Assembly (NCBI GenBank): GCA_947643405.1
Contig: CANRVY010000018.1
Location: 1 to 34,264, forward strand
Direction of reading: 5' to 3'
Origin: an uncultured Mycoplasmatota bacterium
GTDB taxonomy: Bacteria; Bacillota_I; Bacilli_A; RF39; UBA660
Length of the DNA stretch: 34,264 bases
Positions 6,310 to 15,499 of the stretch are shown here, one piece after another. Position numbers and translations under genes: made by a program. Each line of letters begins with the position of its first letter. The stretch's first letter is position 1. Under the pieces are notes generated by a model. The model saw only the letters and a program-made list of their open reading frames with translations. It was not told where the DNA came from and searched no databases.

Positions 6310-6338
6310 TTGACAAGGTATAAAATATATTATATATT
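6310..6338 (+). promoter_or_regulatory. Promoter of the M20/GNAT operon
   Basis: TTGACA (6310-6315), a 17-base spacer and TATATT (6333-6338). Transcription should begin near 6345, about 190 bases before the M20 start codon. Confidence 0.75.
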
Positions 6339-6363
6339 ACTCTCAACAGAAAGGAAGAACTAT

Positions 6364-6405
6364 ATGAAATTATTTTTGCAAAACAATCGCAGACGTTACC
6401 GATGA
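6364..6405 (+). CDS. Arginine-rich leader peptide MKLFLQNNRRRYR
   Basis: A 13-residue frame with a strong SD (AAGGAAG, seven bases before the ATG) begins soon after the promoter and ends at TGA. Residues 9-11 and 13 are Arg, written CGC, AGA, CGT and CGA: four different codons in a genome that mainly uses AGA. Such clustering is the hallmark of a ribosome-mediated attenuation leader that senses charged tRNA-Arg. The codons overlap the 5' arm of stem B. The peptide itself probably has no function. Confidence 0.75.
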   Translation: MKLFLQNNRRRYR

Positions 6406-6489
6406 GTACTTGTAAAACGATTAAAATAAATCGTAGATGCAAGTACTATTTGTGTTGCTTGTATCTGCGATAGGAAAATAATTTCAAGG

Positions 6490-6523
6490 AACCTATGCAT
6501 ATACAAGCATAGGTTTTTATTTT
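6490..6523 (+). terminator. Attenuator terminator before the M20 gene
   Basis: AACCTATGC (6490-6498) pairs perfectly with GCATAGGTT (6507-6515) around an eight-base loop and runs into TTTTTATTTT. It sits directly before the SD of the M20 gene. Confidence 0.85.
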
Positions 6524-6536
6524 GAAAGGAGAATTT

Positions 6537-7601
6537 ATGAAAAAAGAAATAATAAATACATTAGAATGGTTAATTAATTTTAAAAGTGTATCAGAAAATA
6601 AAAAAGAGACAGAAGCTCTACTTAATCAAATTGCTTCTAAAATGAATCCAAATTTAATTATAAAAAAACATTACTTTAATGGTTTTTCTTCACTTGTCAT
6701 AGCTAATACAAAAGAAAAAAATTATGATGTTGTATTTTGTGTTCATATTGATGTGGTTCCATGCGAAAAATATCAATTTCAAAAAAAAGGCAATATTATT
6801 TATGGTAGAGGTGCAATTGACATGAAAGGTGCAGTTAGTGTTTGTATGACTTTATTAAATCATTTAAACACAGAAAAAAAAGTTGCCCTATTTATTACCA
6901 GTGACGAAGAAATCGATGGAAATTGTGCAAAACAGCTTGTAGATTTATACCCAAATATCAAATTAGCAATTGTTCCTGATGGTGGCTCTAACTTTAATTT
7001 AGTTATTGAAGAAAAAGGATTGTTACAACTAAAATTAGAGATTGAAACAATTGCTACTCATGCTTCTACACCATTTTTAGGAGAAAATGCAGTTACATGC
7101 TTATATGAGCTCTATAATAAAATTATAAAACAATATCCACTTCCAAAAAATGAGGATGATTATAGAACCTCTATTACATTAACAAAATTAGAAGGTGGAA
7201 ATGCTTATAATCAAGTTCCTTCTCACGCCTCTATGATATTGGATATTCGGTATACAGTTAATGACAAGCCTGAAAATATTATAAAATTTATAAAAAAAGA
7301 AAATCCAAATACTCAAGTTACAACAATTGCACAAGGGTCTATTTTTACCACCAATACTAATAATGATAATATCATATCCTATATAAACAGTTGTAATGAA
7401 ATTTTAGGATATAAACCTGAATTCAAAAAAATAACATCTACTTCAGATGCAATTTACTTTTGTGCTAAAAAAATTCCTACTATTATTATGAATCCAGTAG
7501 GTGGGTATCCACATTCTGAAAAAGAATATGTCACAGCTGATTCACTAGTTTCGCTATACCAAATATATGAACACTTTTTAAGTAAAGGAGAGATAAAATG
7601 A
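6537..7601 (+). CDS. M20-family metallo-amidohydrolase (ArgE/DapE-like)
   Basis: M20 enzymes use two zinc ions to cleave amide bonds of N-acyl amino acids or small peptides; ArgE, DapE, carboxypeptidase G2 and peptidase T-like enzymes belong here. The metal and catalytic set is visible: His70 and Asp72 (VHIDVVP), Asp95 (GRGAIDMKG), the Glu pair 124-125 (TSDEEIDG), Asp148 (PDGG), His175 of the dimerisation lid (THAS) and the C-terminal His of YPHSEKEY. The 354-aa length is normal. The start is the ATG at 6537, with AAAGGAG 5-11 bases upstream; an in-frame TTG at 6522 falls in the terminator. The arginine-coded leader suggests an arginine-related substrate, such as acetylornithine, acetylcitrulline or Arg-containing peptides. 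The family does not decide this. It overlaps the GNAT gene by four bases. Confidence 0.85.
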   Translation: MKKEIINTLEWLINFKSVSENKKETEALLNQIASKMNPNLIIKKHYFNGFSSLVIANTKEKNYDVVFCVHIDVVPCEKYQFQKKGNIIYGRGAIDMKGAVSVCMTLLNHLNTEKKVALFITSDEEIDGNCAKQLVDLYPNIKLAIVPDGGSNFNLVIEEKGLLQLKLEIETIATHASTPFLGENAVTCLYELYNKIIKQYPLPKNEDDYRTSITLTKLEGGNAYNQVPSHASMILDIRYTVNDKPENIIKFIKKENPNTQVTTIAQGSIFTTNTNNDNIISYINSCNEILGYKPEFKKITSTSDAIYFCAKKIPTIIMNPVGGYPHSEKEYVTADSLVSLYQIYEHFLSKGEIK

Positions 7602-8257
7602 GTAATCAATTATATGATATGAAATTAATTCCCATGCCATATGGATACATTAAGCCAATTGACAAATTTGAAGATTTTGAAAAAGTAATCGATGTTTTTA
7701 AAGAACCACCATTTAGTGAACCATTAAGTTTAAAAGACAAACTAGAAGAATATAATGGATATTTAAAGAACGGACTAGCACTTGGATATTATACTGCTAG
7801 TGGAGAAATTATGGGATATGCAGGTATTATGCAAGAGGTAGAAGATATTCATAAACCATTTTTTAATCCAAATATTGGAATTCTTAACCCCTTTTATATT
7901 TATGGATTAGCAACAAGAAGTGGATATAGAGGGAAATATATGGTTTGTTCTTCATTAGTAAAAGTTATCAATGACCTTGCTATTACAAATAAAATTGATT
8001 TTATCTATTTAAGAATTTCTGCAGCTGGTTCTAAATCAGAACATCTCTGTTTAAGACTTGGATATGACAATTTATATCAAAATGGCAGCATTCCAGTCCA
8101 ATCTTGTAGCTTTGTTAGAATTGATGGAAAAATGGAAACAGACGAAAGAAGATTCTTAATTAAACCAATTAGTCAAAAAGGACACATCTTTCTTTTTGAA
8201 ACTGGTTCTATAAAACAGCCCTATGATAAAATAGCTGTTTATGAAAAAAATGAATAA
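7598..8257 (+). CDS. GNAT-family N-acetyltransferase
   Basis: GNAT enzymes transfer an acyl group from acyl-CoA to an amine. The acetyl-CoA motif A is seen at IYGLATRSGYRGKYMVCSSL (about residues 104-123): a beta strand, then the R-x-x-x-R-G-K pyrophosphate loop and a helix. The later segment FIYLRISAAGSKSEHLCLRL gives the beta5-alpha4 part with the side-by-side SEHLCLRLGY helix. The N-terminal 100 residues carry the substrate side and are not recognisable. The gene overlaps the M20 gene by four bases (ATGA), so the two products are made together and may act on the same metabolite, one adding and one removing an acyl group. The substrate is unknown. A terminator follows. Confidence 0.8.
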   Translation: MSNQLYDMKLIPMPYGYIKPIDKFEDFEKVIDVFKEPPFSEPLSLKDKLEEYNGYLKNGLALGYYTASGEIMGYAGIMQEVEDIHKPFFNPNIGILNPFYIYGLATRSGYRGKYMVCSSLVKVINDLAITNKIDFIYLRISAAGSKSEHLCLRLGYDNLYQNGSIPVQSCSFVRIDGKMETDERRFLIKPISQKGHIFLFETGSIKQPYDKIAVYEKNE

Positions 8258-8261
8258 GTTA

Positions 8262-8292
8262 AAACTGTTGATAAATAATCAACAGTTTCTTT
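8262..8292. terminator. Shared terminator between convergent units
   Basis: AAACTGTTGAT (8262-8272) pairs with ATCAACAGTTT (8278-8288) around AAATA. Short T-rich tracts flank it on both strands, between the plus-strand GNAT gene and the minus-strand pilin gene. Confidence 0.75.
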
Positions 8293-12980: not shown

Positions 12981-13003
12981 AAAAATCGTAATTAGTACGA
13001 TTT
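12981..13003 (-). terminator. Terminator after the 192-aa paralog gene
   Basis: AAATCGTA (12983-12990) pairs with TACGATTT (12996-13003), and the minus-strand RNA continues UUUUAUU. It overlaps the stop codon of the upstream gene. Confidence 0.75.
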
Positions 13004-13581
13004 TACTTTTTTACTTTTACAGGAAAACTTTCTTCTTTCTGGACCTCTCCTGTAAATGCTAATGGAACAATTCTAGTAAATGGACCTGTTCCTTCTTTTT
13101 CTATAAACTGATTTAATAATTTAAAATTTCTATCATAATCAAAACTACGCGGTTCAAGACATAATCCATTATTAATGCCACCAAAATTCCAATAAGATTG
13201 ATCAACACCAATTCCCAATGAAGTTCTCATTTGTCTTAAATATTCTAAAACATCTTTTGGAAGATATTGATTAAGACACCAATGGAGACCTATTTTTCTT
13301 CCTTCTAAAATTGCTACTGCTAGCTGTAAATTTCTACAATTCTCTGCTTGACCATAATAATTTTTCCAATTAACCGATTCAAATTTTTTTTGTGCTACAT
13401 ATTTTCTTCCTTCCAATAAAGCTCTTTCATAAGCATCTTGTGGGACCAATAAAATTTCTCTTTCTTGCCAAAAGTGTTCTTGAATTACTTCTATTTTTAT
13501 TTCAGATATTAAAAAATCCCTTACCAAGTCTATTTCACCAATATTTCCAATGAATGCTGATTTTAATTCTAACTTGCTCAT
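13003..13581 (-). CDS. Unknown protein, copy 1 of a three-member local family
   Basis: A 192-aa soluble protein of a family I do not recognise. It starts MSKLELKSAF and ends with EGTGPFTRIVPLAFTGEVQ followed by a basic VKVKK tail, the same frame of motifs as copies 2 (14146-14727) and 3 (14945-15499). Shared inner features are an acidic YERALLEGRK-type helix near 75, an aromatic VxWxNYY segment near 93 and a P-x-DVLxYLR helix near 132. No membrane segment or known catalytic motif is visible. Its start overlaps the stop of the guanylate-kinase-like gene by four bases, so the two are translationally coupled. The GGAGG SD lies inside the upstream gene. Confidence 0.75.
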   Translation of the reverse strand: MSKLELKSAFIGNIGEIDLVRDFLISEIKIEVIQEHFWQEREILLVPQDAYERALLEGRKYVAQKKFESVNWKNYYGQAENCRNLQLAVAILEGRKIGLHWCLNQYLPKDVLEYLRQMRTSLGIGVDQSYWNFGGINNGLCLEPRSFDYDRNFKLLNQFIEKEGTGPFTRIVPLAFTGEVQKEESFPVKVKK

Positions 13582-14126
13582 TTTCTACCTCCTATAATAT
13601 ATCCTAAAACTTTTTGAAACTCTTTTTGATATTCTTCTATGCTAGAATTGTTTGTTACCTCATAATCTGCAACCCTTCTAAATTCTGCTAATTCTTGCTT
13701 AATTTGAGAAAATCTTTCTCTAATCTGTTCAATAGAATCTCCTCTTTTTCTTAATCGCTCTTCTAATATATCTAAAGAAGAATCGATTAAAATGCAAGGC
13801 GCTCTATCTAACTTTTCTTTTAGCTGTAAAATGCCATCATACCCAATATCTTTAATGGCTATTTTACCACTTCTTATTATATCATCATAATCTGTTCTTA
13901 ATATGCCATATTGATCTTGATGAAAATATTGATGTATCAATAATTGATCCTGTTCTTTTAAACAATTAAATTCAGGATGACTTACAAATACATATTCACT
14001 TTTTGGGTCACTTGGTCTAGATAATCTAGTAGTAACACTCCTTGGAAGTGTAAATATATCTGGATTTAAATTTCTAATGAGAGTGGATTTTCCAACACCA
14101 CTTACTCCACAAACTACAATAAACAT
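13578..14126 (-). CDS. Guanylate-kinase-like P-loop protein
   Basis: The 182-aa protein has a P-loop GVSGVGKST (7-15) and the guanylate-kinase GMP-site pattern SVTTRLSRPSD with YVFVSHPEF (about 34-55). Near 73 there is a YGILRTDYDDIIRSGK segment where Gmk has YGT and the ID helix, then a lid-like arginine-rich RLRKRGD-x-RERF region. Guanylate kinases phosphorylate GMP to GDP with ATP. This one diverges from housekeeping Gmk, for example ILR in place of the YGT-T/S motif, so it may act on another nucleotide or bind without turnover. It sits between two paralogs of the unknown family and overlaps copy 1. GGAGG precedes its ATG. Confidence 0.75.
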   Translation of the reverse strand: MFIVVCGVSGVGKSTLIRNLNPDIFTLPRSVTTRLSRPSDPKSEYVFVSHPEFNCLKEQDQLLIHQYFHQDQYGILRTDYDDIIRSGKIAIKDIGYDGILQLKEKLDRAPCILIDSSLDILEERLRKRGDSIEQIRERFSQIKQELAEFRRVADYEVTNNSSIEEYQKEFQKVLGYIIGGRK

Positions 14127-14145
14127 AATATGCCTCCAATATTTA

Positions 14146-14727
14146 TTATTTAATCTTTAAGAATGTAAAACTTTCTTTTTTTTGTACTTCTCCAGTATAA
14201 GATACTGGAATAATTCTTGAAAAAGGACCTGTTCCCTCCTGAAGAATAAACGATTTCATAAGTTCTAATTGCTTTTTATAATCCAAACTTCTTGAAGCAA
14301 AACATAAGGCTCTATCAGTATCATAATAAGATTGTGTAACATTTACACCTAATACTTCTTCCATTTTTCTAGCATATGCATAAACATCTTCTGGAAGATA
14401 TTGATTCGCACACCACAATACATTTCCTTTTCTTTTTCTGCGCAATATAGCATAAGCTAACTGAACATAGCCACATTCCAATGCAACATTATCTTGATTA
14501 ATCCATTTCACATATGGAATATTATTTTCTACTACAAATTTTTGAACTTCTGGTAGTACTCTTTCATAATCATCTTGCGGAACATCAATCACACTATATC
14601 CACAACATTCACAATAAGACCACTCACGAAATATTTTGATATTCATGTCACCTGTTAAAAAGTTTCTGACTAATTTTTTACTATCTATTCCTGTCATAAA
14701 TGCTGACTTTAATTCTAATTTACTCAT
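14146..14727 (-). CDS. Unknown protein, copy 2 of the local family
   Basis: This 193-aa paralog of the genes at 13003 and 14945 starts MSKLELKSAFMTG and ends EGTGPFSRIIPVSYTGEVQ plus a hydrophobic-basic tail. I set the start at the ATG 14727, because the paralogs begin with MSK and GAGGGG lies nine bases upstream; an in-frame GTG at 14736 overlaps that site. It has an extra CECCGYS segment near residue 40 not seen in the other copies. Function is unknown. A strong promoter precedes it, and the guanylate-kinase-like gene follows after 19 bases. Confidence 0.7.
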   Translation of the reverse strand: MSKLELKSAFMTGIDSKKLVRNFLTGDMNIKIFREWSYCECCGYSVIDVPQDDYERVLPEVQKFVVENNIPYVKWINQDNVALECGYVQLAYAILRRKRKGNVLWCANQYLPEDVYAYARKMEEVLGVNVTQSYYDTDRALCFASRSLDYKKQLELMKSFILQEGTGPFSRIIPVSYTGEVQKKESFTFLKIK

Positions 14728-14763
14728 TCCTAACACCCCTCAAAAACCTTTTTTATGAACGCT

Positions 14764-14792
14764 ATTATAACAGAATAAAAGGTCTTTGGCAA
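14764..14792 (-). promoter_or_regulatory. Promoter of copy 2 and the gmk-like operon
   Basis: TTGCCA (14787-14792), a 17-base spacer and TATAAT (14764-14769), with a TG one base before the -10 (extended -10), on the minus strand. I see nothing else in this 217-base gap beyond the terminator of copy 3. Confidence 0.8.
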
Positions 14793-14919
14793 ATCCGCTC
14801 TGACTGACTGATTTGATTAGCAGCGTCCAACTGCACTTACTATTCTTTATATAAAATGATCTCATTATCCTAAAATGATAATTTGCTAGATTCAATAATT
14901 TTTAATTTCCATTAAATGA

Positions 14920-14948
14920 AAAAATCACATCATAATGCAATTTTCTAT
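14920..14948 (-). terminator. Terminator after copy 3
   Basis: On the minus strand, AAATTGCAT pairs with ATGTGATTT (two G-U pairs) around TATG and is followed by UUUC. The stem is mostly A-U, so it is of moderate strength. Confidence 0.5.
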
Positions 14949-15499
14949 TTTTTGATTTTTACAAATGGTTTATCTAATACTTTTCCAGTACTTGAAAGTG
15001 GATACATTTCTTTAAATGGGCCCATTCCTTCAGACTCTACAAACTCTCTTAGTTTTTGAACTTTTTCTTCTTGATCAAGTCCTAGTGTAAATAAGCAAAA
15101 TGCATTTTCACCAAAATGATTGAATTCTTTTTTCCAAAGATTAGGCACATCAATTGCATTTTTCACTCGTTTTAAATACGATAATACATCTTCAGGTCTT
15201 TGTCCAACTTGCATTGTTACACATGCAAGTATTGATTCTAATAATTCTACCGTTTCATCATAGTAATTTACCCACTCTACATCTTTTAATTCTTCTAGAA
15301 GAGCAAATTTTCTCCCTTCTATAATTGCTGTTTCATAATTTTTTTCAAAAACCGCAATAGAATCTCTTGTTAATTCTCCAGAAACATATACACTAGAAAA
15401 AACTGGTATTTTTATAGCTTTCGTAATATAATTCCTCATAAGTTTTAAAGACATTTTCCCATCAAAGACAAATGCATTTCTTAGTTTTATTTTGCTCAT
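14945..15499 (-). CDS. Unknown protein, copy 3 of the local family
   Basis: At 184 aa this is the most diverged paralog. It starts MSKIKLRNAFVFDG and ends EGMGPFKEMYPLSSTGKV with a basic VKIKK tail. It keeps the YETAIIEGRKF helix near residue 55, the VEWVNYYDE segment and the P-x-DVLSYLKR helix near 110. It lacks the middle YW/YY segment of the other two. Having its own promoter and terminator, it is expressed separately from copies 1 and 2. GGAGGGAT precedes the ATG. No function can be assigned. Three tandem copies point to local duplication followed by divergence. Confidence 0.7.
   Translation of the reverse strand: MSKIKLRNAFVFDGKMSLKLMRNYITKAIKIPVFSSVYVSGELTRDSIAVFEKNYETAIIEGRKFALLEELKDVEWVNYYDETVELLESILACVTMQVGQRPEDVLSYLKRVKNAIDVPNLWKKEFNHFGENAFCLFTLGLDQEEKVQKLREFVESEGMGPFKEMYPLSSTGKVLDKPFVKIKK

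Follow-up and report, generated by a model that had tools for sequence, protein, structure and literature searches.

The stretch of DNA analyzed here (the window, 34,264 nucleotides at the start of a contig from an uncultured Mycoplasmatota bacterium of the GTDB order RF39) carries, in front of an M20 hydrolase/GNAT acetyltransferase operon, an element that is very likely a ribosome-mediated leader-peptide transcription attenuator reading charged tRNA-Arg. An earlier note, made without database searches, had proposed leader-peptide attenuation at this site, and comparison with related genomes supports it: the Arg-Arg-Arg codons are conserved, the alternative pairing covaries, and versions of the scaffold with other codons stand in front of the cognate tRNA synthetase genes. 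Translation of the leader and its response to arginine remain inferred, with no expression data. The element is also larger in scope than that note had it, being one of a family of attenuators; we see it as a member of a family-wide set in which one scaffold would carry interchangeable Arg, His, Trp or Cys sense codons.

Immediately 5′ of the M20/GNAT operon, positions 6310–6530 of the window hold a promoter, a leader ORF, an intrinsic terminator and segments for four alternative pairings; the parts of this element and its operon are on the + strand. The sigma-70-type promoter (TTGACA-17-TATATT, 6310–6338) has 11 of 12 consensus matches; transcription is inferred to start at about 6345 and the leader ORF begins 26 nt 3′ of the promoter. 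The earlier claim of a leader ORF with a Shine-Dalgarno sequence held, as AAAGGAAG (6350–6357), which is kept in relatives, precedes a 13-codon ORF at 6364–6405 (ATG AAA TTA TTT TTG CAA AAC AAT CGC AGA CGT TAC CGA TGA) encoding MKLFLQNNRRRYR, and homologous leaders are found at 19 Arg-class loci. Also correct were the claims that its Arg codons are CGC (6388), AGA (6391), CGT (6394) and CGA (6400) and that the genome favours AGA, which makes up 64.5% of the Arg codons in the window's genes (8,786 codons) with CGC at only 2%. The control codons CGC AGA CGT (6388–6396) lie at −18, −15 and −12 relative to G6406, an offset that is fixed across classes.

The terminator ends 13 nt 5′ of the ATG of an M20-family metallohydrolase gene (6537–7601; Pfam Peptidase_M20, E = 2e-22). 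The protein is DapE/ArgE-like, its nearest solved structures are an M20/M25/M40 peptidase and DapE enzymes, and it falls in the Arg-leader clade of the M20 tree; we predict that it releases arginine, although its substrate is unknown. No Pfam family matched the second gene (7598–8257), but its AlphaFold model (pLDDT 84.8) matches GNAT structures, with GNAT acetyltransferases throughout the top Foldseek matches, so that the acetyltransferase named in the earlier note held. A probable operon-end terminator hairpin follows at 8262–8288. Elsewhere in the window, an IS3-type transposase fragment beside a serine recombinase marks a mobile element at the contig start (7–1741), and three related adjacent genes of unknown family (beginning MSKLELKSAF, MSKLELKSAFM and MSKIKLRNAFV) occupy 13003–15499 with a guanylate-kinase-like gene among them.

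The RNA from 6345 to 6530 has a folding energy of −56.3 kcal/mol, compared with −29.3 on average for shuffled sequences (z = −7.0), and none of 200 shuffles reached the native value. Segment 1, ATCGCAGA (6386–6393), lies inside the leader Arg codons and pairs with TCTGCGAT (6464–6471) within the GCGATAGG region; this helix, together with pairing of the leader start (6364–6377) to the spacer (6473–6486), closes the untranslated (off) fold. Segment 2 (6405–6414), the 5′ arm of a central hairpin, pairs with 6438–6447, and segment 3 (6430–6447) has either segment 2 (through 6438–6447) or segment 4 (through 6430–6443) as its partner. Segment 4, TGCTTGTATCTGCGATAGG (about 6456–6474), is the 5′ arm of the antiterminator and the most conserved stretch of the family. 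Segment 5 (6490–6506) is the 5′ arm and loop of the terminator and, extended to about 6509, also serves as the antiterminator 3′ arm; segment 6 with the U-tract (6507–6523) completes a terminator of −15.3 kcal/mol, AACCTATGC-ATATACAA-GCATAGGTT-TTTATTTT (6490–6523). Pairings 2:3, 3:4 (14 bp, 6430–6443 with 6458–6471), 4:5 (the antiterminator, about 6456–6474 with 6490–6509) and 5:6 (the terminator) are mutually exclusive. The earlier note was right that the Arg codons overlap the 5′ arm of a stem and that the 3′ arm of this stem can pair with the terminator, where the GCGATAGG region does have an alternative partner in the terminator 5′ arm, with an antiterminator segment longer than GCGATAGG. 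The stem it saw was the pairing of the leader with segment 4 and the spacer, and it overlooked both the central hairpin (6405–6447) and the 14-bp competitor.

These pairings are supported across the family. Helix 2:3 covaries in 83 distinct sequences, with 99.3% of cells paired, 17 double-change cells and three pairs changed on both sides. For helix 3:4, segments pair with their own partner at −10.5 kcal/mol as opposed to −7.8 for permuted partners (the best of 2000 permutations gave −8.65), and compensatory changes can be seen in CTTGTATCT/AGGTACAAG, CTTGTTGCCT/AGGCGCAAG and CTTATACCTG/TATAGGTATAAG. Pairing 4:5 scored −11.2 with its own partner, −8.6 when swapped and −4.8 when shuffled. Terminator hairpins were present 3′ of all 88 elements examined, the automatic choice being an overlapping hairpin in a few. 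Mutual exclusion of antiterminator and terminator is therefore supported by covariation. In the Arg class the leader pairs with segment 4 and the spacer at a mean of −19.6 kcal/mol, and 4:5 is blocked without translation in 11 of 14 cases; no such leader fold onto segment 4 or the spacer was found without translation in the His class. We accordingly rejected the default-off leader:spacer pairing as a family-wide feature, and it is restricted to the Arg class.

The leader is near-identical in two other species of the window's genus (L002 and L003), occurs with its operon in a further genus (g102) where the leader ends are altered (RRRCR, RRRLS), and is conserved in the window's genus plus seven further genera. 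In L003 (1501–1980) only remnants of the M20/GNAT operon itself survive, disrupted by stop codons and by a deletion, with the Arg leader, pairings and terminator intact. The earlier note would have been refuted by a lack of conservation of either the Arg codons or the alternative pairing, and neither was the case, as RRR persists in the 19 Arg-class leaders, which come from at least 8 genera, and the pairing covaries.

A blastn search with the leader within the family showed that the core also stands before other genes, for example hisS with an HHH leader (L026) and hisG with an HH leader (L025). Among 385 genomes of the order, 36 had matches to a covariance model built on the RNA core alone (R1), and a scan of 395 genomes from the class with R1 found nothing beyond the window's family. 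A second covariance model (R2) matched in 63 of 386 family genomes, its weakest rows including false ones, and searching 84,980 species with a DNA pattern gave 91 stretches, mostly from gut assemblies labelled 'Bacilli', 'Tenericutes' or 'Erysipelotrichaceae'. Once false matches and duplicates were removed, 114 elements remained (88 His, 19 Arg, 6 Trp and 1 Cys), all in one family of uncultured gut Bacilli in the GTDB order RF39. One carrier (L154) is Candidatus Coprovivens, which was placed in order RF39, family CAG-1000, in GTDB R95 (PMC8035907). Matches of the models R1, R2 and R3 in coding genes without a leader were rejected by eye (L063, L064, L067–L069, L071, L219–L228, L230–L233, L235, L236 and L242); a pattern match in an Omnitrophota genome (L163) was due to chance, L059 was dropped since segment 4 is missing, and opposite-strand model matches, which arise from the near-palindromic 3/4 pair, were excluded. 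No Rfam family matched the window in gathering or evalue mode, with none, including His_leader (RF00514), at its gathering score and the evalue-mode matches weak and far below gathering scores, and the T-box model (RF00230) had no match at the window or at 10 other loci.

In every class the sense codons sit −20 to −10 nt before the hairpin, at −18/−15/−12 or −17/−14/−11 for Arg, −17/−14/−11 for His, −16 for Trp and −17/−14 for Cys. Arg triplets precede argS and the Arg-type M20 genes, His triplets precede hisS and hisG, a single Trp codon precedes trpS, and Cys-Cys precedes cysS. With downstream genes clustered and families named by NCBIfam, the sense codon was cognate to the downstream gene in all 41 diagnostic cases: HisS (32/32) and HisG (5/5) behind His leaders, ArgS behind Arg leaders (2/2; L070 and L244), TrpS behind a Trp leader (1/1; L217) and CysS behind a Cys-Cys leader (1/1; L152), the last gene being truncated at the end of the available sequence. 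The substrates of the window's own M20 and GNAT proteins are unknown and do not enter this count. Label shuffles equalled the observed concordance in 0 of 20,000 trials; this test counts 42 diagnostic genes instead of 41, as locus L119 has two elements. M20 genes stand behind Arg, His and Trp leaders, and the M20 tree divides exactly by leader class, needing 2 changes where shuffling gave 12.1 on average. Trp leaders carry His codons adjoining Trp, and the Cys class is a single locus. One Arg-class leader, RRRRLRRHLRTR (L065), precedes two genes of unknown function and no M20 gene.

This distribution bears on three other explanations, each of which we consider very unlikely. The first is a drug-inducible attenuator, in which macrolide-type arrest at an R-X-R motif (RYR or RRR) would control a resistance operon as in erm and msr leaders. 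The window leader does end in RYR, a +X+ type motif, and motifs of this type are known for macrolide arrest; many drug-responsive leaders occur in Gram-positives (PMC10314930, PMC4191407), and GNAT enzymes can inactivate drugs. However, the RYR end is not conserved, the same scaffold is found with HHH, W or CC before hisS, trpS and cysS, and what lies downstream are amino-acid genes, with neither rRNA methylases nor pumps among them. With no conserved arrest motif and no resistance gene downstream, membership of the erm/msr type was rejected.

The second explanation is an arginine-responsive nascent-peptide arrest, where the peptide itself senses arginine like the fungal arginine attenuator peptides. 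In its favour, the peptide is Arg-rich and one Arg sub-group keeps the peptide start MKLF..NNRRR. Against it, Arg leaders across genera have little in common except RRR (their ends vary from RRRLS and RRRFS to RRRCQ and RRRGM), and in the His, Trp and Cys forms nothing but the placement of the sense codons is retained; the conserved start of the sub-group is accounted for by the leader:spacer RNA pairing. The third is that the element responds to slow translation in general, as a stringent or rare-codon sensor that does not distinguish amino acids, or is a relic without function. CGC is indeed rare, and the decay of the L003 operon behind an intact leader would fit a relic, but the Arg-class control codons mix CGN with AGA, the commonest Arg codon, the codon class matches the downstream gene in every diagnostic case, and 3:4 shows compensatory changes. 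We favour attenuation by a ribosome stalled at cognate sense codons.

Stalling was modelled by removing the ribosome-covered RNA and folding the remainder before the terminator 3′ arm is made, which amounts to equilibrium folding in which the footprint is assumed to resemble that of E. coli. When the first or second Arg codon of the window leader occupies the A site, the model forms 2:3 and 4:5; 4:5 then has 13 pairs and 3:4 next to none. At the Tyr codon, the fourth Arg codon or the stop codon it forms 3:4 (11.4 pairs at the stop) and 4:5 is mostly lost. A stall at the third Arg codon (6394) is borderline and the verdict depends on the footprint. The earlier idea that the Arg codons are the control held only in part, as modelling lets just the first two, perhaps three, act; the fourth, which is Ser or Gln in relatives, is modelled as too near the hairpin. 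Across the family, the model has 4:5 winning at the first control codon in 80 of 82 His, 16 of 18 Arg, 6 of 6 Trp and 1 of 1 Cys elements, and 3:4 winning at the stop codon in 13 of 18 Arg, 6 of 6 Trp, 24 of 82 His and 0 of 1 Cys elements; 4:5 weakens at the stop codon in 71 of the 82 His elements. Switching is thus predicted to be clear for Arg and Trp, weak for His and absent for the single Cys element. The weak His-class switching is probably due to the stop codon lying inside the hairpin loop, where the mask also covers part of segment 3.

We propose that when Arg-tRNA is short the ribosome would stall once its A site reaches the first or second Arg codon, covering segment 1 and leaving segment 2 free to form 2:3. 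Segment 4 could then pair with segment 5 as antiterminator, and RNA polymerase would enter the M20/GNAT genes. With plentiful Arg-tRNA the ribosome would reach the stop codon and cover segment 2, such that 3:4 forms and 5:6 terminates. Without translation the leader would pair with segment 4 and the spacer and transcription would terminate, a feature of the Arg class. In the window's 95.7% complete genome neither argG nor hisD was found, and 14 of 14 and 13 of 14 control genomes have argG and hisD, respectively. Their absence suggests that this bacterium is auxotrophic for arginine and histidine, though this is an inference. By the same kind of inference, the operon would probably help an arginine auxotroph to recover arginine from acylated or peptide-bound forms. 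More generally, we infer that the M20 and GNAT genes behind Arg leaders, together with the M20, GNAT and histidine-racemase-like genes behind His leaders, look like means of recovering amino acids from acylated, peptide-bound or D-forms.

The mechanism as such is not new, as leader-peptide attenuation is established in Firmicutes for branched-chain operons and predicted for histidine. Similar to the enteric his and trp attenuators, the RF39 element combines a leader ORF, tandem sense codons, exclusive hairpins, a stall that leads to the antiterminator, and an intrinsic terminator. It also shares the logic of the his leader, in which A:B, C:D and E:F stand against B:C and D:E. Unlike the enteric elements (Rfam His_leader, RF00514, for his), it has no Rfam match and a different sequence, resides in uncultured RF39 Bacilli, and belongs to one scaffold that serves several amino acids and controls tRNA synthetases and salvage enzymes. 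Ribosome-mediated attenuation of branched-chain amino acid operons has experimental support in Listeria (Rli60; PMC5864092) and S. aureus (ilv; PMC5794164), which are also low-GC Gram-positives. These are single operons, and we found no codon-swapped family scaffold in the sections of those papers that bear on it. His leader peptides have been predicted computationally for B. cereus hisZ and hisS* (PMC2965389), as have candidate his attenuators in the B. cereus group, Peptostreptococcaceae and Erysipelotrichales (PMC9413887). They too have runs of His codons before hisS/hisZ or his operons, but are limited to histidine, and no scaffold shared with them was detected at the sensitivity of R1 (395 class genomes; alignments were not compared directly). 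With these four precedents, the earlier statement that the mechanism is rare in low-GC Gram-positives held in part, as it is uncommon.

The T-box (RF00230) is likewise a modular scaffold with a swappable specifier codon in front of tRNA synthetase and amino-acid genes, but it reads tRNA directly and needs no translation, unlike the RF39 attenuator. As for the earlier remark that such bacteria mostly use T-boxes, they are not absent here: the window's genome has 12, before pheS, gltX, aspS, asnS, glyS and others. Some T-boxes of this genome stand before non-synthetase genes (deoC-like, HD-domain and dUTPase-like; L175, L180 and L183).

Apparently new are the use of arginine, the occurrence of Trp and Cys forms in this lineage and, most of all, an inherited scaffold with exchanged codons. 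A bacterial arginine leader attenuator was not found in the open-access literature searched, which misses most subscription journals, and neither was a shared scaffold with swapped codons in the literature searched. A bolder reading, which we regard as likely, is that the modular scaffold is inherited vertically, with codons exchanged in evolution among Arg, His, Trp and Cys when it was copied before new genes, which would make it the equivalent of a T-box read by the ribosome, and that the codon labels what the downstream enzyme acts on. The leader-peptide attenuators known to date give the impression of having evolved operon by operon; here a single scaffold seems to have served dozens of genera with no change but that of the sense codons, a modular design known until now from T-boxes. 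The amino acids read by leader peptides in Firmicutes would gain arginine and, in these bacteria, Trp and Cys, and the family offers natural codon-swap experiments. Orphan genes of the M20, GNAT, racemase and phosphoribosyltransferase-like kinds, in uncultured gut bacteria that are seemingly amino-acid auxotrophs, also receive a functional label from the leader codon; if the bolder reading is true, this codon would mark M20 hydrolases and racemases as releasing Arg, His or Trp.

Several genes behind these leaders were observed in passing. DapF-like proteins found behind His leaders (L056, L084 and L094) and one Trp leader have the histidine racemase CntK as best match, below the cut-off, which suggests D-amino acid use. 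At five loci (L033, L036, L080, L117 and L155) hisG directly follows a His leader with no adjacent his gene in the visible part. A phosphoribosyltransferase-like gene comes first behind HHH leaders at 22 loci (L034, L101, L087, L149 and others); the gene (product KGIVFSxDIKRILNG..., motif LADDVVFSG) forms a conserved pair, of unknown role in His metabolism, with one for a TIGR00725/LOG-like Rossmann protein. Lastly, a protein of about 494 aa and unknown family is encoded behind His leaders at L047, L049, L051, L062 (in the window's own genome), L092, L132, L203 and L239, followed at some loci by an S66 LD-carboxypeptidase.
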